This document shows positions 25,931 to 33,941 of a DNA stretch of 37,320 nt, piece after piece. Both the position numbers and the translations under genes were made by a program. Under the pieces are notes generated by a model, which was not told the origin of the DNA, did no database searches, and saw nothing but the letters and a program-made list of their open reading frames with translations. The stretch comes from Candidatus Adlerbacteria bacterium. Lineage in GTDB: Bacteria > Patescibacteriota > Minisyncoccia > Phycocordibacterales > SBAW01. Location of the stretch: positions 1 through 37,320 of the forward strand of contig CAISEE010000023.1 in the NCBI GenBank assembly GCA_903884345.1. Reading direction: 5' to 3'. Each line of letters starts with the position of its first letter. Position 1 is the stretch's first letter.

Positions 25931-28255
25931 ATGCCACGCGCACAGTCGGGAATGATAACGAATATTAAGAAGCGGGATGGATCGTTGGTGCCGTTTGATG
26001 CCGAGAAGATTGCAGTCGCGGTCACCAAGGCCATGAAGGCCGCGGGCGATTTCAAAGAACACGCGCCTGAAAAGGTGGCGAAGGCCGTGGCCGAGAAGCT
26101 CGCTGCAAAGATTGGCGAGGACGCGACCTTTGTCCCGACCGTCGAGGGCGTGCAGGACGCGGTCGAGACCGAGCTCATGCTCCAAAAGTTCCCGGCGACC
26201 GCCAAGGCGTACATCCTCTACCGCGCCGATCGCTCCCGCATGCGCGAGAAACAAGGCATCGAGGTCTCCGACCATGTCCGCACCCTTGCCTCCGAGAGTA
26301 AAAAGTACTTCAAAGGCAACCAATTGGGCGAATTCGTCTACCTGCGCACCTACGCGCGTTGGATCGAGGCCGAGGGTCGCCGCGAGACCTGGATCGAGAC
26401 CGTCGATCGCTACATGGCCTTCATGAAAGAGAACCTGGGCGATAAGTTGACCGCGGCCGAGTACGCTGAGGTTCGCGAAGGAGTGCTCAAACAAGAGGTC
26501 ATGCCGTCGATGCGCGCCATGCAGTTTGCTGGCGAGCCCGCACGCCGCTGCAACACCTGTTTCTATAACTGCTCCTTCCTCGCCCCGTCCAAACTCGAGG
26601 ACTTCGCCGAGATCATGTACCTCTCGATGCAGGGCTGCGGCGTCGGATTCGCCGTCGAGAGTCAGAACGTCGAGCAGCTTCCGCAGATTAAGAAGCAGGG
26701 CGGCAAGAAATTGGCGATGCACATGGTCCTCGACTCCAAAGAAGGCTGGTGCGACGCGCTCACGCTCGGTCTTCGCACCTGGTACGACGGCCGCGACGTC
26801 GACTTCGACTTCTCGATGGTGCGCCCCGCTGGCGCACGCCTCAAAGTCATGGGTGGCAAGGCATCGGGCCCCGAGCCCCTGCGCTCGCTCCTACAGTTTG
26901 CCCGCGAGAAGATTCTGCGCCGTCAGGGTCGCCGCCTGCGCCCCATCGACGTGCACGACATCATCTGCAAGATCGGCGAATGCGTCGTGGCAGGTGGCGT
27001 ACGCCGCACCGCGATGATTTCCCTCTCCGACCTTGACGACGACGCACTGCGCGACGCAAAGAAGGGGCAGTTCTTCCTCGGCGAGCCGTACCGCATGGTC
27101 GCCAACAACTCGGCGGTCTACGAAAACAAGCCGTCTAACACCGAACTTATGGAGGAGTGGGTCGCCCTTATGAAGAGCGGCTCGGGTGAGCGCGGCATCT
27201 TCAACCGCGGATCCTTGGCCAACACCATGCCCAAGCGCCGCCTCGCACACTTCGACAAAATCGGTTTCTTGGGTGAGGACGGCGTCGTGCGCGGCCCCAT
27301 CGGCACCAACCCGTGCGGCGAAATCATCCTGCAATCAAAGCAGTTTTGTAACCTCTCCGAGGTGATCGCTCGCGCCGACGACACCCGCGAGTCGCTCGTA
27401 CGCAAGGCACGCTTGGCCGCCATCCTCGGCACCTACCAATCGTCGCTCACCAACTTCAAATACATCTCAAAAGAGTGGGCCGACCACTGCCAAGACGAGG
27501 CACTCCTTGGCGTCTCGATAACCGGCCAGTGGGACAGTGCCGCGGCACGCGAGCCCGAGACCATGCAGGCCGTGCGCGACATGGCAGTTGCGGTCAACGC
27601 CGAGTTTGCCAAGCGCTTCGGCATCAATCAGTCGATGTCGGTCACCGCGGTCAAGCCGTCGGGCACGGTCTCGCAAGCCTTCAACTGCTCCTCGGGCATC
27701 CACCCGCGTCACGCCAAGTACTACATCCGCCGCGTGCGCATCTCAGCCACCGACTCGCTCTTTAAAATGTTGCGCGACCAGGGCGTGCCGTACTACCCCG
27801 AGGTGGGCCAGACCACCGAGAACGCCAGCACCTACGTGCTCGAGTTCCCTGTCGAGTCCCCTGACAGCGCGAAGTTTAAAGATGACTTCTCGGCTCTCGA
27901 GCAGCTCGAGTACTGGAAGCGCGTCAAATTAAACTTCACCGAGCACAACCCGTCGGCCACTATTTCAGTCGGCGAGGACGAGTGGATCAGCGTCGTCGAT
28001 TGGGTGCAAAAGAACTGGGAGATCATCGGCGGCCTCTCGTTCCTCCCGCGCTATGACCACGTGTACCGTTTAGCACCGTACGAGACCATCGACAAGAAGC
28101 GCTACGACGAGATGCTCGCGCAGTTCCCCGAGATCGACTACTCGAAGTTGGTGACCTACGAACTCACCGACGAGACCGAGCAAAAGAAAGAGCTCGCCTG
28201 TGTGGGCGGCGTCTGCGACATCGACATGGTCCCGGTGGTGTCGGCCGGGCAGTAA
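25931..28255 (+). CDS. nrdJ: Adenosylcobalamin-dependent ribonucleoside-triphosphate reductase (class II)
   Basis: Converts ribonucleotides to deoxyribonucleotides using a radical made from AdoCbl. 774 aa, close to the monomeric RTPR of Lactobacillus. N-terminal ATP-cone (ITNIKKRDGSLVPFDAEKI, about residues 10-95), then MRAMQFAGEPARRCNTC, EIMYLSMQGCGVGFAVE, and NPCGEI with the thiyl-radical Cys at about 462 and a second active-site Cys 11 residues later, as in RTPR. The tail CVGGVC (757/762) matches the shuttle Cys pair reduced by thioredoxin. ATG 25931 is preferred; an in-frame TTG at 25916 and ATG at 25952 are alternatives. It is the consumer of the cobalamin locus that follows. Confidence 0.96.
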   Translation: MPRAQSGMITNIKKRDGSLVPFDAEKIAVAVTKAMKAAGDFKEHAPEKVAKAVAEKLAAKIGEDATFVPTVEGVQDAVETELMLQKFPATAKAYILYRADRSRMREKQGIEVSDHVRTLASESKKYFKGNQLGEFVYLRTYARWIEAEGRRETWIETVDRYMAFMKENLGDKLTAAEYAEVREGVLKQEVMPSMRAMQFAGEPARRCNTCFYNCSFLAPSKLEDFAEIMYLSMQGCGVGFAVESQNVEQLPQIKKQGGKKLAMHMVLDSKEGWCDALTLGLRTWYDGRDVDFDFSMVRPAGARLKVMGGKASGPEPLRSLLQFAREKILRRQGRRLRPIDVHDIICKIGECVVAGGVRRTAMISLSDLDDDALRDAKKGQFFLGEPYRMVANNSAVYENKPSNTELMEEWVALMKSGSGERGIFNRGSLANTMPKRRLAHFDKIGFLGEDGVVRGPIGTNPCGEIILQSKQFCNLSEVIARADDTRESLVRKARLAAILGTYQSSLTNFKYISKEWADHCQDEALLGVSITGQWDSAAAREPETMQAVRDMAVAVNAEFAKRFGINQSMSVTAVKPSGTVSQAFNCSSGIHPRHAKYYIRRVRISATDSLFKMLRDQGVPYYPEVGQTTENASTYVLEFPVESPDSAKFKDDFSALEQLEYWKRVKLNFTEHNPSATISVGEDEWISVVDWVQKNWEIIGGLSFLPRYDHVYRLAPYETIDKKRYDEMLAQFPEIDYSKLVTYELTDETEQKKELACVGGVCDIDMVPVVSAGQ

Positions 28256-28357: not shown

Positions 28358-28561
28358 TTACGCGTGCGCTGCCGGCTGCTGGCCTTTTTTTACTTTGGCT
28401 GGCACAGCTCCCGGGGCACCTGTCGCCACCGGAGCGGCGTTCGGTTCACAGGCGCTGCTGCAGTAGCGTTTCTTGTCGGCACCCACGTGATAGGCGCTGG
28501 TAAGTGCATTGGCACATGCGGGATTGGCGCATTTGTCTTTAGACCAAGACGTTCGGCACAT
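28358..28561 (-). CDS. Small putative zinc-ribbon protein, 67 aa
   Basis: Not assigned. Four Cys in two knuckles (CANPAC near residues 10-15 and CSSAC near residues 33-37) suggest a zinc ribbon; the tail is Ala/Pro/Lys-rich and probably disordered. ATG 28561 is chosen because AGGGAG lies about 8 nt upstream and a consensus promoter (TTGACA-16-TATTGT) precedes it. It belongs to the Shine-Dalgarno gene class. No evidence ties it to cobalamin apart from position. Confidence 0.65.
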   Translation of the reverse strand: MCRTSWSKDKCANPACANALTSAYHVGADKKRYCSSACEPNAAPVATGAPGAVPAKVKKGQQPAAHA

Positions 28562-28596
28562 CGACCATCTCCCTTTAAAATAATCCACCAAGCGCA

Positions 28597-28624
28597 ACAA
28601 TATCGTATATTTCTGAAATGTCAA
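28597..28624 (-). promoter_or_regulatory. Sigma70-type promoter for the zinc-ribbon gene
   Basis: Minus strand TTGACA (28624-28619), 16-nt spacer, TATTGT (28602-28597). Confidence 0.75.
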
Positions 28625-28659
28625 TGAAGATTGGCAGCTCCCTCTGTGCAGAACTCCAC

Positions 28660-29196
28660 TTAGTAGGTCGGTCGCTCCTCGGCAGACTGGGCCAAGGTGT
28701 TTGCCAAGCGCGCCAGAGCGTAGAGGAAGCTCGAGAGGCGGTTGAGGTACTTCCCCGTCTCGGGGCACACGGGTTTGGTGTCGCGGGCGGCGATGACCTG
28801 GCGCTCGACGCGGCGCGAGACGGCGCGGGCGTAGTCGAGGTGAGCCGAGAGTTCGGTGCCGCCGGCGATGACGAACGAGGTTGGCTTCTCGATCTCTTGC
28901 TCGATCTCGGCGATCGATACCTCGAGCCGGTCGACGCGCGGCTGGTCGATCTTCTTGTCGGCTCCGGCCAACTCGGCCTGAACGATGAACAAATCCTGCT
29001 GAACGGAGCGCAGCAACTCGGCCACGCGCTCATAGGTTGGGCCCGCCGCGGTCGCTTTCGCAAAGCAAATACCCAAGAGCGAATTAAGCTCGTCGACCGA
29101 GCCCAGCGCCTCAAACAGCGGGCAATCCTTGGGTAAGCGGCTATTCGAGCCAAAGAGACCCGAGGTACCGTCGTCGCCTTTGCGCGTGTATAACAT
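28660..29196 (-). CDS. Cob(I)alamin adenosyltransferase, PduO type
   Basis: 178 aa. Transfers the adenosyl group of ATP to cob(I)alamin to make AdoCbl, the cofactor of NrdJ. Seen: N-terminal TRKGDDGTSGLF (ATP loop, residues 4-15), ALGSVDELNSLLG, and the C-terminal ATP/cobalamin region with RRVERQVI and YLNRLSSFLYALAR. Start 29196 is set by the family start and by TATACT ending 7 nt upstream; longer in-frame starts overlap the divergent DUF4430 gene. The 27-nt spacer to that gene is a shared promoter region. Confidence 0.95.
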   Translation of the reverse strand: MLYTRKGDDGTSGLFGSNSRLPKDCPLFEALGSVDELNSLLGICFAKATAAGPTYERVAELLRSVQQDLFIVQAELAGADKKIDQPRVDRLEVSIAEIEQEIEKPTSFVIAGGTELSAHLDYARAVSRRVERQVIAARDTKPVCPETGKYLNRLSSFLYALARLANTLAQSAEERPTY

Positions 29197-29223
29197 TGCA
29201 GTTAGTATAAAGTACGAATCGCT

Positions 29224-29775
29224 ATGAGCAAAAAACGCCTCGTCATCAAACTCGCACTGATTGCGATCATTGCTGCGGTCACCATCACCGCCCTCTTTGG
29301 TGGCACCGGCTCGCACACAACCGTCTCCAAACCCCCAACCGACTCGCGTAGTGTCGGCATCACCACCGCGGTGCACACTGCGCCCCCGAATGACGGCGGC
29401 TCACCGGCATCCCAGTCCAACGCCGCTCCTGTGCATCAATCGGTGGCAACCATCGCGAAAGCGCCGCAAGGCCCGACTATTTCCCTCTCCATCCAAGGGT
29501 TATATACTAAGAAGCCGGTCGCCATTACGTCGGGCGAAACGATGCTCGCTCTGCTTCAGGCGCAAAACGCCGCAGACCCCGCGATGCAGTTGACCAGCAA
29601 GTCGTACGCGGGGCTGGGCACTTTGGTCACGGGCATGGGCGGATTCACGAACGGGACGGATAAAAATTACTGGCAGTACACGGTCAACGGCATCATGCCG
29701 CAAATCGGCGCCAGCGGGTACCAATTACAAAACGGTGATCGCGTCGAATGGTTCTTCGGCCCGTCGCAAAACTAA
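29224..29775 (+). CDS. Membrane-anchored DUF4430 (transcobalamin C-terminal-like) protein
   Basis: 183 aa. Basic start plus one span (LVIKLALIAIIAAVTITALF, about residues 6-25), a Ser/Thr/Pro-rich linker (28-80), then one DUF4430 domain (about 84-183) with SGETMLALLQAQ, MGGFTNGTDKNYWQYTVNG and LQNGDRVEWFFG. DUF4430 is the bacterial version of the beta domain of transcobalamin/intrinsic factor. It probably holds cobalamin, or helps hand it over, outside the membrane; that is inference from fold and neighbours. The next gene follows after 10 nt, so they form an operon. Confidence 0.88.
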   Translation: MSKKRLVIKLALIAIIAAVTITALFGGTGSHTTVSKPPTDSRSVGITTAVHTAPPNDGGSPASQSNAAPVHQSVATIAKAPQGPTISLSIQGLYTKKPVAITSGETMLALLQAQNAADPAMQLTSKSYAGLGTLVTGMGGFTNGTDKNYWQYTVNGIMPQIGASGYQLQNGDRVEWFFGPSQN

Positions 29776-29785
29776 CCTTACCGCT

Positions 29786-30337
29786 GTGGAGAAAAAACAG
29801 ATTTTCATGATTCTCGGATTGGTCGCCTTCGCCATCTTCGTGCGTCTCGCCTTTCACCTGCCCAACGCGACCCCAATCACGGCGCTGGCCTTGGTCTCAA
29901 GCCTCTACATCGGCCGACGCTGGGCCGTCATCGTGCCGCTTGTCGCACTCTTTCTCTCGGACCTTTTGATCGGCTTCTACGACTGGCGCGTGATGCTCGC
30001 CGTTTACGGCTCGTTTGCAAGTATCGGCGTCGCAAGCATGCTTTTGCGAAAGTACCCAACCAAACTCGTGGGCGCAGGCCTCACGCTGGGCTCGTCGCTG
30101 TTCTTCTTTCTCACCACCAACTTTGCCGTTTGGGCGTTCTCTCCGTGGTATGCCAAAAGCGTGGCTGGGCTCCTCTACTGCTACACCCTGGGCCTGCCCT
30201 TCTACCGCGACATGGTGCTCGGCGATATGATCTACGTCCCGCTCCTTATGGGCGTCTTCGCCTATGGTCACGTGGCCGCGCCGTACCTTCGCGCAACACG
30301 TCGAGAGCTTGCGCAAGCATTCGCCACTCGCGTATAG
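29786..30337 (+). CDS. DUF6580 / ECF S-component-like membrane protein
   Basis: 183 aa, about five or six membrane segments. Matches the DUF6580 putative-transport family: LPNATPITALALVSSLYIGRR, VPLVALFLSDLLIGFYDW, FFFLTTNFAVWAFSPWY and YCYTLGLPFYRDMVLGD. The size and fold resemble ECF transporter S-components (substrate-capture subunits that share a common energising module). Position next to DUF4430 and a cobalamin riboswitch suggests corrinoid uptake. No EcfA/EcfT genes are in the window. Start GTG 29786 is preferred (10 nt after the upstream stop); ATG 29807 is possible. Confidence 0.82.
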   Translation: MEKKQIFMILGLVAFAIFVRLAFHLPNATPITALALVSSLYIGRRWAVIVPLVALFLSDLLIGFYDWRVMLAVYGSFASIGVASMLLRKYPTKLVGAGLTLGSSLFFFLTTNFAVWAFSPWYAKSVAGLLYCYTLGLPFYRDMVLGDMIYVPLLMGVFAYGHVAAPYLRATRRELAQAFATRV

Positions 30338-30338
30338 T
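30309..30338 (+). promoter_or_regulatory. Promoter of the riboswitch transcript
   Basis: TTGCGC (30309-30314), 18-nt spacer, TATAGT (30333-30338), inside the 3' end of the DUF6580 gene. Start expected near 30345, just before the riboswitch. Confidence 0.55.
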
Positions 30339-30359
30339 TGCGCTGTTCGTTACATAGAA

Positions 30360-30454
30360 CTGAGAGTCGGGGAAGCGAGGTGCAATGCCTCCACAGTGCC
30401 GCTACGGTAAATCCAACGAGCAATCGACGGATGAGTCCGAATACCGACCCTCAG
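30360..30454 (+). promoter_or_regulatory. Cobalamin riboswitch
   Basis: Compact aptamer closed by CTGAGAGTCGG (30360-30370) / CCGACCCTCAG (30444-30454), one mismatch. Core motifs in order: GGGGAA, the hairpin GAGGTGCAATGCCTC, GTGCCGCTACGGTAA (consensus GxCCCGCxACUGUxA), and the B12 box GAGTCCGAATACC (consensus AAGxCAGxAxACC). Downstream, GCCT-cgagca-AGGC (30474-30487) can cover the AAGG that precedes ATG 30490, which points to translational control: B12 bound, start hidden. The missing 5' peripheral arm makes it look like a short, class II-type variant. Confidence 0.85.
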
Positions 30455-30489
30455 CGATATTTATTCACATAAAGCCTCGAGCAAGGCGT

Positions 30490-32520
30490 ATGCCATACAC
30501 AAACTCAACAGCCGTGCGTGTGTTCCTGTTCGCTACCCTTTTAACACTCACTCTCCCCTTTGCCGCGGCGCGTGCCGATGACGCGTCGAGCACGCCCGAC
30601 GTTGCAACGACGACGCCGAACGTCTCACTCGCAACCAGCACTCCCCCGGTCGCGACAACAACGCCCATTCTTCCACCGAGCGTCCCCATTCACCTCGAGA
30701 TTGATACGGCGACCACGACACTCTTTTCAGATTACCTGACGGTCGACGCGTGCGCGCCCGACACCATCGGTGGCGCCGAGACGGTCAACCTCATGTGCGC
30801 GATTAACCAGACGAATCTGCCCACCTCATGGACACCCTCGTCGCAGTACATGTTCCTCAACTCGATCAGCGGCGCCGCAAACGACTACGCAGCAAACAAC
30901 TATTGGGGCTGGTTCTCGAACGCAGTCTACGGGCAGACGGCCATGAACGTGCACCCGCTGACCAGTGGCGAGGATCTTCTCGTTACGATCGGCCGCATGC
31001 CACTCTCAATCAGCGCGACCACGCTGGCGCCACAGGTCGGCGACATTGCGACGATTACCGTGTCGCACTTTGCCTTCGACGCCAACTACAACCCTATTTG
31101 GCAACCTGCGCAAAACGGCATGGTGTACATCGCGGGGCAAAGCTACCCGACCGACGTAAACGGCCAAGTCGCCTTCACCGCCACCTCGACCGACCCACTT
31201 GATGTCTACGCGACCGTCGACGGTTTTTTGCCGAGTAAACACATCGCACTTCTGCCGACCGCAGCACCCGCGGCACCCGCCCCAATCGCGACCGGAGACT
31301 CGACCGGCATCACGCCCGCGCCGAGTACCTCGGCCTCGACCGGCAACGCCTCAGCCGCACTCGCATTTTTGCTCTCGCAGCAGAAGGCCGACGGCTCGTT
31401 TACGGGTAGCTTCATCGACGACTGGGCGGCGCTCGCACTCGCTCAAAGCACCGCACCACAGGCTGCGAAGAACGCTCTCAAAACCTCCCTTGCGGCACAA
31501 CAGCAATTCGACTCCGTGACCGACTACGAGCGCCGCGCGATGGCAAACGAGGCACTGGGGCAGGACCCAAACGCGGGCGCTGACCCGATCGCACACATCA
31601 CCACATCGTTTGACGGCACACAAATCGGCGACAAAAACCTCACGACCGACGACATCTTCGCACTCTTCCCACTCACCCACGCCGGGTACACGGTGAATGA
31701 TTCACTCATACAAAAAGAAGTCGCGCACGTGCTTTCGGCACAGTCCACTAATGGCTCGTTCGACACGAGCGTCGACGTCACGGCAGCCGCCATACAGGCA
31801 CTCGCGCCGCTGACCTCAATCGACGGTGTCACTGCGGCGCTTGCCAAAGCGCGCACCTACCTGGCCGCGCGCGAGCAGCCAAATGGTTGCTTTGGCAACG
31901 ACTTCTCGACCAGCTGGGCGATGCAGGCCATTGCGGCACTCGGCGAGAATCCTGCCAACTGGGCAGCTTCAAACGGTGGCAACCCGCTGACTTGCTTGGC
32001 GACGTACCAGCAGCAAGACGGCGGGTTCGAGTCCACGACCACCGACCAAAACACCCGCATCTGGGCGACCTCGTACGCGCTGCTCGCGCTTCAGAACAAG
32101 ACTTGGAACTTGCTCTTGCACACCTTCGCGAAGCAGGACGCACCCTCGACCGGTGGCTCGTCGCTAAGCATCACGGTTGCAACCAGCACCGCGACCACGA
32201 CTCCGCCTATCGCGGCAACCTCGACGACGCCAGTCCTCCTCATCGCGACCTCGACCCCGGCAGTGGTGCAGAGCACGGCGACATCGACCGCGACCACGAC
32301 GCCTAATCGCATCCACACAGCGCTGCGGCGAAAACATGAAGGGATCATCGGCACGAGTGTCGCCACGGTGGCGCTGCGCCCTGCCACAGCCTCGACAATC
32401 GCACCCGAAACACAGGTTGCCGGTGTCGGCGCGGCCACTCTCCCCGCAGAGACGCACGGCGGTGTACGCGGATTCTTCGCCTCGCTCTGGCGTCGCATTC
32501 TCTCGACGTTTACGAAATAG
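30490..32520 (+). CDS. Secreted transcobalamin-like protein: DUF4430 + Ig-like + alpha/alpha toroid
   Basis: 676 aa. Signal peptide (residues 1-29, cleavage after AAARA), Thr/Pro linker (30-70), a DUF4430-like domain (about 75-167, with YMFLNSISG and NNYWGWFSNA), an Ig-like domain (about 168-255), a Pro/Thr/Ala linker, then an alpha/alpha toroid (about 284-540) with at least five QW-like repeats (LLSQQKADGSF, VLSAQSTNGSFD, AAREQPNGCFG, YQQQDGGFES). A Thr-rich stalk and basic amphipathic end (FFASLWRRILSTF) follow. The toroid is the fold of the alpha domain of intrinsic factor/transcobalamin and of prenyltransferases. With the riboswitch in its leader, extracellular corrinoid binding is the best guess. 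Start 30490 is used because the upstream in-frame ATG (30385) lies inside the riboswitch. Confidence 0.85.
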   Translation: MPYTNSTAVRVFLFATLLTLTLPFAAARADDASSTPDVATTTPNVSLATSTPPVATTTPILPPSVPIHLEIDTATTTLFSDYLTVDACAPDTIGGAETVNLMCAINQTNLPTSWTPSSQYMFLNSISGAANDYAANNYWGWFSNAVYGQTAMNVHPLTSGEDLLVTIGRMPLSISATTLAPQVGDIATITVSHFAFDANYNPIWQPAQNGMVYIAGQSYPTDVNGQVAFTATSTDPLDVYATVDGFLPSKHIALLPTAAPAAPAPIATGDSTGITPAPSTSASTGNASAALAFLLSQQKADGSFTGSFIDDWAALALAQSTAPQAAKNALKTSLAAQQQFDSVTDYERRAMANEALGQDPNAGADPIAHITTSFDGTQIGDKNLTTDDIFALFPLTHAGYTVNDSLIQKEVAHVLSAQSTNGSFDTSVDVTAAAIQALAPLTSIDGVTAALAKARTYLAAREQPNGCFGNDFSTSWAMQAIAALGENPANWAASNGGNPLTCLATYQQQDGGFESTTTDQNTRIWATSYALLALQNKTWNLLLHTFAKQDAPSTGGSSLSITVATSTATTTPPIAATSTTPVLLIATSTPAVVQSTATSTATTTPNRIHTALRRKHEGIIGTSVATVALRPATASTIAPETQVAGVGAATLPAETHGGVRGFFASLWRRILSTFTK

Positions 32521-32547: not shown

Positions 32548-32582
32548 GACACGCATCTGTAGAGTTGATATACTGAGTGAAC

Positions 32583-33941
32583 GTGAAGCTGCGCGTAATC
32601 CCCTTCGTCGTGCCGGTTCTGCTATCACTCTCTTTCGTCGTGCTTCTATCGGCACCTCGCGCACATGCGCTGACGCCGGCCGAGCGCGCACAGCTTGAGG
32701 CACAGTTGGCGCAAGTCGAGGCCGATCAAGCGGCGGCGCAACAGGCACTCTCGGTCGCGCAATCAAAATCCTCGTCGCTCCAAACCGACCTCGCCATCAT
32801 CGCCGCCAAAATCAAGACCGAGCAGCTCGACATCCAAAAGAAGAAGCTCCAGATTCAGACGCTCGGCAACACCATCTCGACCAAGCAAAGCGAAATTAAC
32901 AGCCTCGACGCGCAGATTGCAAAAAACAAGCAATCGGTCGGCGCGATGTTTCGCGACCTCGCACAAAACGATGACGAGTCGCTTTTGGCTATCGCGCTTG
33001 GCAACCAGACCCTGTCGCAGTTCTTCGACGACGCCATTACGCTGGTGTCGCTGCAGCAGCAGATTGACACGCTCTCATCGCAGCTCGCCGTCGACGAGGC
33101 ATCGAGCACCGCGGCCAAGCAGACGCTCGTCGTCAAACAAAACTCGGTGAGCGATGCACTCTACGCCATTCAGCAGGAGCAAAAAATCGTGCAGGCAAAC
33201 CAGGCACAGCAGCAGCAACTCCTCTCGGTGGGCAAGTTAAGCGAGAAGGCGTACTCGACGCTCGTGGCACAAAAGAAGAAAGAGGCCGCCGCGATTAACG
33301 CAAAACTCTTCGCCCTCGCCGGTGGATCGAACCCCATCCCTTTCGGCACCGCCTACCAGTACGCGCTCGCCGCGCAAAAGGCGACCGGTGTCGACCCCGC
33401 CTTCCTCTTGGCCATCATGACGCAGGAGTCGAACTTGGGATCAAACCAAGGGACCTGCTACCTCACCGACACCAACACGGGCGCGGGCGTGAGCGTTAAA
33501 TCGGGCAAAGTCTACAGCAAGGTCATGAACCCCACGCGTGACGTGCCGCCCTATTTGCAAATCACGTCGGCACTCGGGGTCGACGCGCTTCACACCACGG
33601 TCTCGTGCCCGCAGTCGGTCGGCTGGGGCGGCGCCATGGGGCCGGCGCAGTTCATCGCCTCGACGTGGGTCTTGCTTTCAAGCCGCGTCACGTCGTCGCT
33701 CGGGCAAAGTGGCATGGCCAACCCCTGGAACGCGCAGCACGCCTTCGTCGCCTCGGCGCTCTACCTGGCCGACCTCGGTGCCGCAAGTGGCGGCTACACT
33801 GCCGAAAGTAATGCCGCGTGCCGCTACTACTCGGGCAGCTCCTGCAGCAAATCGTCGCTCATCGCCAGTTACGGCACGAGCGTGATGTCGCTTGCCGCGA
33901 CGATTCAGACCACCGAAATCAACAAACTTCTCGGGCAGTAA
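32583..33941 (+). CDS. Secreted coiled-coil lytic transglycosylase-like protein
   Basis: 452 aa. Signal peptide (about residues 1-28, ends APRAHA), a long coiled coil (about 30-220, EnvC/PcsB-like, Gln/Ala/Lys heptads), then a transglycosylase-like domain (about 240-440): ATGVDPAFLLAIMTQESNLGSN with a probable catalytic Glu, WGGAMGPAQFIASTW, NPWNAQHAFVASALYLADLG. It would cleave peptidoglycan glycan strands; the coiled coil suggests control by a membrane partner at the division site. TATACT (32569-32574) ends 8 nt before GTG 32583; a GTG at 32577 is also in frame. Confidence 0.88.
   Translation: MKLRVIPFVVPVLLSLSFVVLLSAPRAHALTPAERAQLEAQLAQVEADQAAAQQALSVAQSKSSSLQTDLAIIAAKIKTEQLDIQKKKLQIQTLGNTISTKQSEINSLDAQIAKNKQSVGAMFRDLAQNDDESLLAIALGNQTLSQFFDDAITLVSLQQQIDTLSSQLAVDEASSTAAKQTLVVKQNSVSDALYAIQQEQKIVQANQAQQQQLLSVGKLSEKAYSTLVAQKKKEAAAINAKLFALAGGSNPIPFGTAYQYALAAQKATGVDPAFLLAIMTQESNLGSNQGTCYLTDTNTGAGVSVKSGKVYSKVMNPTRDVPPYLQITSALGVDALHTTVSCPQSVGWGGAMGPAQFIASTWVLLSSRVTSSLGQSGMANPWNAQHAFVASALYLADLGAASGGYTAESNAACRYYSGSSCSKSSLIASYGTSVMSLAATIQTTEINKLLGQ

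Follow-up and report, generated by a model that had tools for sequence, protein, structure and literature searches.

The window analyzed here, i.e., the whole stretch of 37,320 nt from contig CAISEE010000023.1 of a Candidatus Adlerbacteria bacterium, carries a gene cluster which was examined at positions 28660-32520 together with nrdJ upstream, and in which a cobalamin riboswitch lies among the genes for a cobalamin adenosyltransferase, a small DUF4430 protein, a DUF6580 membrane protein and an exported toroid protein. An earlier interpretation made from the letters alone (hereafter the sequence-only reading) had named these parts and taken them for a system that scavenges vitamin B12. By profile and covariance-model searches all of them were recovered at their places beside nrdJ, with scores well above chance:

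About 25952-28255, forward strand: nrdJ, class II, i.e., adenosylcobalamin (AdoCbl)-dependent, ribonucleotide reductase (ATP-cone PF03477, RNR_Alpha PF17975 and PF02867, all above cut-off)
28660-29196, reverse strand: PduO-type ATP:cob(I)alamin adenosyltransferase (PF01923, TIGR00636)
29224-29775, forward strand: small DUF4430 protein, similar to the transcobalamin beta domain and bearing a membrane anchor or signal at its N-terminus (PF14478)
29786-30337, forward strand: DUF6580 membrane protein with a predicted S-component fold (PF20221, CbrT match, fold model)
30347-30466, forward strand: cobalamin riboswitch aptamer (RF00174)
30474-30487, forward strand: L13-like hairpin GCCU-CGAGCA-AGGC, read from the sequence, which shares bases with the ribosome-binding site AAGG (30483-30486)
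30490-32520, forward strand: exported protein of DUF4430-like, beta-sandwich and alpha/alpha toroid domains (PF01122, fold model)

Against TIGR02505 NrdJ reaches 287.6 bits (curated cut-off 340.05), and no other gene of the window's genome (887 kb, 100% complete) matches this model. PduO scores 156 bits with PF01923 (E 1.1e-45) and 143.9 bits with the equivalog TIGR00636, above its cut-off of 108.45; the small DUF4430 protein scores 48.8 bits with PF14478 (cut-off 23.8) and the DUF6580 protein 134 bits with PF20221 (cut-off 27). Hydropathy of the small DUF4430 protein is 2.6 over 19 N-terminal residues, and proteins of this kind keep the motif W..Y.NG...G...Y.L..GD.V.W.F. The most likely starts are 29196 for PduO, GTG 29786 for DUF6580 (alternatively ATG 29807) and, 3' of the riboswitch, 30490 for the toroid gene; the ATG at 30385 falls within the aptamer.

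Many reduced Paceibacteria need AdoCbl for NrdJ, yet neither synthesis of B12 nor an importer of a recognised kind is apparent in them, and the cluster offers a concrete answer: it is probably, including the whole of the route proposed below, a module by which Paceibacteria unable to make B12 acquire corrinoids. Co-occurrence, synteny, riboswitch placement and predicted folds lend strong support to the core of the sequence-only reading, i.e., riboswitch-controlled, transcobalamin-like corrinoid scavenging that feeds NrdJ in a B12 auxotroph, the binding of cobalamin itself being a prediction. In dozens of related bacteria the parts stay together, and this suggests a common, apparently undescribed route by which B12 is obtained from neighbours. 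The parts resemble those of known B12 systems; no description of their combination was found in the open-access literature searched, most subscription papers lying outside its coverage. The module would tie Paceibacteria to B12-producing neighbours, assign proposed functions to DUF4430 and to two S-like families, DUF6580 and an unnamed one, and provide bacterial counterparts for an architecture familiar from the B12 carriers of animals.

Conserved linkage of the parts and demand for B12

Co-occurrence was counted in 118 genomes, comprising that of the window and 117 relatives, with Fisher tests that ignore phylogeny. The toroid protein was found in 14 of them, all of which belong to the 17 genomes with DUF6580 (p 1.3e-15), and the association is also present within the window's genus alone (p 5e-6). 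Since the toroid gene lies on another contig than DUF6580 in five genomes (G001, G019, G088, G108 and G111), this co-occurrence is more than physical linkage. Strong NrdJ matches were present in all 17 DUF6580 genomes (p 1.8e-5), and at most of the DUF6580 loci NrdJ, PduO and the small DUF4430 protein, in many cases joined by the toroid protein, are encoded within a few kb, in shuffled gene order. Across the 118 genomes PduO co-occurs with NrdJ (p 2e-19), which supports the B12 dependence of the latter.

When 84,980 species genomes were scanned with a narrow toroid alignment (A3), whose patterns were drawn from this clade and so do not show absence elsewhere, 61 toroid loci were obtained; those carriers that bear a lineage name belong to Patescibacteria (Adlerbacteria, Kaiserbacteria, Nomurabacteria, Taylorbacteria, Liptonbacteria and others). 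Co-occurrence beyond the window's genome is wide. A DUF4430 match accompanies 59 of the 61 loci, nearly always as a separate small gene directly 5' of the toroid gene. NrdJ lies within 6 kb of the toroid gene at 15 of the 61 loci, where about one would be expected, a difference whose nominal p is made too small by the relatedness of the genomes.

With regard to synthesis, the corrin-ring gene CbiC (PF02570), the one cob/cbi gene searched in the window's genome, was found in none of the 118 genomes; like the wide co-occurrence, this check did not refute the sequence-only reading. As the sequence-only reading had supposed, the bacterium is apparently unable to make B12. Its genome encodes no B12-binding enzyme of the PF02310 type, which leaves NrdJ as the only recognised B12 user found there (NrdB and NrdD were not searched).

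Placement and control of the riboswitch

The aptamer scores 34.5 bits with RF00174 (gathering score 31.5; clan CL00101) and is the only riboswitch of this family in the genome. Pairing in its P1 and P4 stems is preserved by double changes among relatives. A covariance model of our own (R1) was built from six switches: four precede toroid genes in the window's genus, a fifth precedes a second toroid gene, and the sixth heads an unrelated operon. Its structure was made by hand and replaced an RNAalifold consensus, now discarded, in which aptamer and downstream hairpin paired with each other. R1 matches 47 of the 61 toroid loci, every match lying upstream of the toroid gene and on its strand, and in nearly all of the 47 the switch stands directly 5' of the small DUF4430 gene or, if no small gene intervenes, of the toroid gene. 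Of eight toroid loci on which Rfam's own models were run, the six with an R1 match all gave B12 riboswitches, at the same positions, and the two without one gave none.

In 384 class-level genomes, which were sampled without regard to the presence of a toroid gene, R1 found 28 switches besides that of the window. At 26 of these the same strand carries a DUF4430/toroid or S-component-like gene at most 0.8 kb further 3' (in L208 a DUF71 gene intervenes between switch and cluster gene), a further one (L202:1-5542) heads a cobC-cobU-cobT-cobS-DUF71-like-btuF-btuC operon, i.e., canonical B12 salvage, and acts as a positive control, and a single switch is without an explained target. The placement of the switches before DUF4430/toroid genes is the strongest single evidence that these proteins act on B12. 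The salvage operon of L202 may stem from a contaminated assembly. In two genomes of different families an R1 match (RF00174 below cut-off) was found 5' of an operon in which no B12 gene is obvious and which encodes an acidic protein and two ATPases, one ClpA/B-like of the AAA+ type and one TraD/TrwB-like (L077:3182-8720, L080:2166-7182).

Within the window's genus the motif CCTCGAGCAAGG is kept at the hairpin; elsewhere this position holds UCCCGAGCAGGA, and an intrinsic terminator follows in 32 of 35 such switches. If the direction of control is taken from the behaviour of known B12 riboswitches, this suggests a translational shut-off on B12 binding in the window, where the hairpin would cover the ribosome-binding site before ATG 30490, and a transcriptional shut-off in those relatives that combine UCCCGAGCAGGA with a terminator. 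Antiterminator pairing of the L13 hairpin with the terminators reached a shuffle fraction of at most 0.05 in 13 of the 32, which is suggestive only.

Capture protein and membrane carrier

The toroid protein starts with a signal-like segment ending in ARADD, possesses a linker rich in Ser/Thr/Pro/Ala and closes with an aromatic amphipathic tail. It matches PF01122, 'Eukaryotic cobalamin-binding protein', with 30.2 bits (cut-off 25), as do 28 of 57 members of the toroid family. By Pfam its N-terminal DUF4430 domain remains below the cut-off (15.8 against 23.8 bits); the same domain in the structure model matches the solved DUF4430 structure 3u7z with a template modelling (TM) score of 0.73, and the family profile meets the beta domain of intrinsic factor at E 0.02. 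The model, with a predicted local distance difference test (pLDDT) of 92 overall and a predicted TM score (pTM) of 0.60, comprises the DUF4430-like domain, a beta-sandwich and the barrel, whose relative placement is uncertain at this pTM. Its fold matches include haptocorrin (4kki), transcobalamin (2bb6) and intrinsic factor (2pmv); terpene cyclases and complement proteins are matched just as well. The sequence-only reading had seen here a counterpart of transcobalamin, and a barrel and a DUF4430-like domain are both predicted in the toroid protein, but their order in the window, with the beta-like domain before the barrel, is the reverse of that in transcobalamin. Riboswitch-controlled class-level relatives (L193, L195, L196 and others) show the barrel followed by DUF4430, i.e., the transcobalamin order.

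A hydrophobic N-terminal segment is present in 59 of 62 toroid proteins and a C-terminal transmembrane-like segment in 18 of the 62; others, including that of the window, have a short aromatic tail. In addition, a same-genus relative encodes a second toroid protein which lacks DUF4430, carries a C-terminal peptidoglycan-binding domain (PF01471) and has a riboswitch of its own (L079:2623-4058). From the terminal segments and tails and from this paralogue, tethering of the toroid proteins to the cell surface appears likely.

Import through a carrier of the energy-coupling factor (ECF) type, as proposed by the sequence-only reading, was borne out in one half. By its predicted fold DUF6580 is an ECF S-component: the two best matches of the AlphaFold2 model (pLDDT 92) are BtuM with cyano- and hydroxycobalamin (8c7p, 8ovv; TM about 0.65, weak E-values), FolT and RibU come next, and the nine best are all ECF-S folds. 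Searched against PDB, the DUF6580 profile had a sole match up to E 10, namely 6fnp_A, the crystal structure of the cobalamin transporter ECF-CbrT (E 6.9e-6). The other half of the proposal failed, as EcfT (PF02361) was found in none of the 118 genomes, the window's complete genome included, as against 10 of 14 control genomes (EcfA/EcfA' were not searched for). Permeases of the FecCD/BtuC type (PF01032) were likewise not found in the window's genome, and a BtuCDF importer was rejected for it. The carrier would thus have to act alone, as has been described for BtuM, an S-component without an ECF module, the gene of which lies near that of an adenosyltransferase and for which metabolic trapping was proposed (PMC6072759). 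In about ten toroid loci DUF6580 is replaced by a second S-component-like family (A9), which had no match in PDB and by profile resembles DUF6580 only weakly (hhalign E 0.001, probability 21).

Proposed route, rival explanations and known B12 systems

At low intracellular B12 the riboswitch would permit translation of the toroid gene in the window, and in most relatives transcription of the DUF4430-toroid pair. The exported toroid protein, held by its C-terminal tail, would grip corrinoids between the DUF4430-like domain and the alpha/alpha barrel, as transcobalamin does, and the membrane-anchored small DUF4430 protein may aid binding or hand-over. DUF6580, as an S-component without an ECF module, would pass the corrinoid across the membrane. 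PduO would then adenosylate it (not adenylate, as the sequence-only reading had put it), which would both trap it inside and yield the active cofactor, and NrdJ would use the AdoCbl for deoxynucleotide synthesis. A broader and rather doubtful extension is that bacterial transcobalamins deliver B12 to a solitary S-component in an ATP-independent, adenosylation-driven uptake, and that the animal barrel-plus-DUF4430 carriers descend from these proteins or share ancestry with them.

Several observations weigh against the route. The barrel profile is in most members nearer to terpene cyclases, the squalene-cyclase model SQHop_cyclase_C matching 53 of the 57, so that the fold alone is no proof of cobalamin binding. 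Possession of NrdJ and PduO with neither S-component family in 39 of the 118 genomes means that the module is not the sole solution, and PduO had no match in two genomes bearing DUF6580 and NrdJ (G089, G105). The alignments of DUF6580 (16 and 14 members) contain no invariant cysteine; the axial ligand of the BtuM type is missing, and DUF6580 is therefore no member of the BtuM family and works like BtuM at best, with the invariant His24 as a speculative substitute ligand. Furthermore, solitary CbrT gave no B12-dependent growth of E. coli (PMC5997447).

Of the rival explanations, a classical ECF transporter, in which DUF6580 would dock on a shared EcfA-EcfA'-EcfT module encoded elsewhere and be driven by ATP, fits the S-component fold and the similarity to CbrT; it was rejected as largely refuted by the lack of EcfT in all 118 genomes, set against the positive controls, and is improbable. 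A second rival, also unlikely, takes the toroid protein for an enzyme of the terpene-cyclase or lyase kind, or for a surface protein like complement/TED, that would be regulated by B12 and not bind it. The best sequence and fold matches of the protein do include squalene-hopene cyclase, drimenyl diphosphate synthase and complement C3/C4, and 19 of the 57 members carry a D.DD motif, mostly DNDD; however, this motif is missing from the window's protein and from most members, PF01122 matches half of the family, the protein is exported to where prenyl diphosphates are not expected, and toroid genes adjoin those for DUF4430, PduO, NrdJ and S-components behind B12 riboswitches.

A different use of corrinoids, i.e., cobinamide salvage or a sequestration that starves competitors instead of uptake for NrdJ, could be read from the DUF71 (PF01902) genes in some operons, as this family was predicted to act in B12 salvage (PMC3541065). 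We give it a low probability, since NrdJ is present in every DUF6580 genome and often adjacent, a PF02310-type enzyme was not found in the window's genome and nucleotide-loop genes were not seen in the cluster. Mere chance, finally, could have brought unrelated genes together in one genome, and surface proteins often contain DUF4430 and toroid domains; with a linkage that recurs in shuffled orders across many lineages of Paceibacteria, the excess of NrdJ near toroid genes and the strong co-occurrence, this explanation is refuted and its probability negligible.

The module shares with transcobalamin, intrinsic factor and haptocorrin an alpha/alpha barrel, which in one exported protein is joined to a beta domain, predicted here to be of the DUF4430 type, from which the window's protein departs, besides the reversed order, by its extra beta-sandwich domain and long tail. 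Sequence similarity to this family is weak and shared with terpene cyclases, and cobalamin binding is here a prediction. BtuG of Bacteroides pairs with the TonB-dependent outer-membrane transporter BtuB and has no structural relation to the combination of barrel and DUF4430. Common to these surface lipoproteins and to the proposed module is a dedicated surface protein that captures B12 and feeds a transporter (PMC6143338, PMC10404256). With BtuM of Thiobacillus denitrificans (PMC6072759) DUF6580 shares the predicted S-component fold, a genome without EcfT and a nearby adenosyltransferase gene, its transport being predicted; unlike BtuM, it belongs to another sequence family and has exported DUF4430/toroid proteins as well as a riboswitch at its side. 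CbrT of Lactobacillus delbrueckii (PMC5997447), the only relative at the sequence level in PDB, needs its ECF module, whereas none was found in the present genomes by the search for EcfT.

The DUF71/COG2102 clusters of B12 salvage (PMC3541065) have DUF71 in common with some riboswitch-controlled DUF4430-DUF6580 operons (L193:6429-7175, L208:2030-2713), where its presence fits the predicted role; those clusters usually adjoin BtuCDF, and the text describing them mentions neither transcobalamin nor a riboswitch.

Two further genes border the cluster in the window. Between nrdJ and pduO, at 28358-28768 on the reverse strand, a small Cys-rich protein is encoded which weakly resembles prokaryotic metallothionein (PF02069, below cut-off), and directly 3' of the toroid gene, at 32577-33941 on the forward strand, lies the gene for a coiled-coil protein that matches the lytic transglycosylase domain PF13406 above its cut-off.

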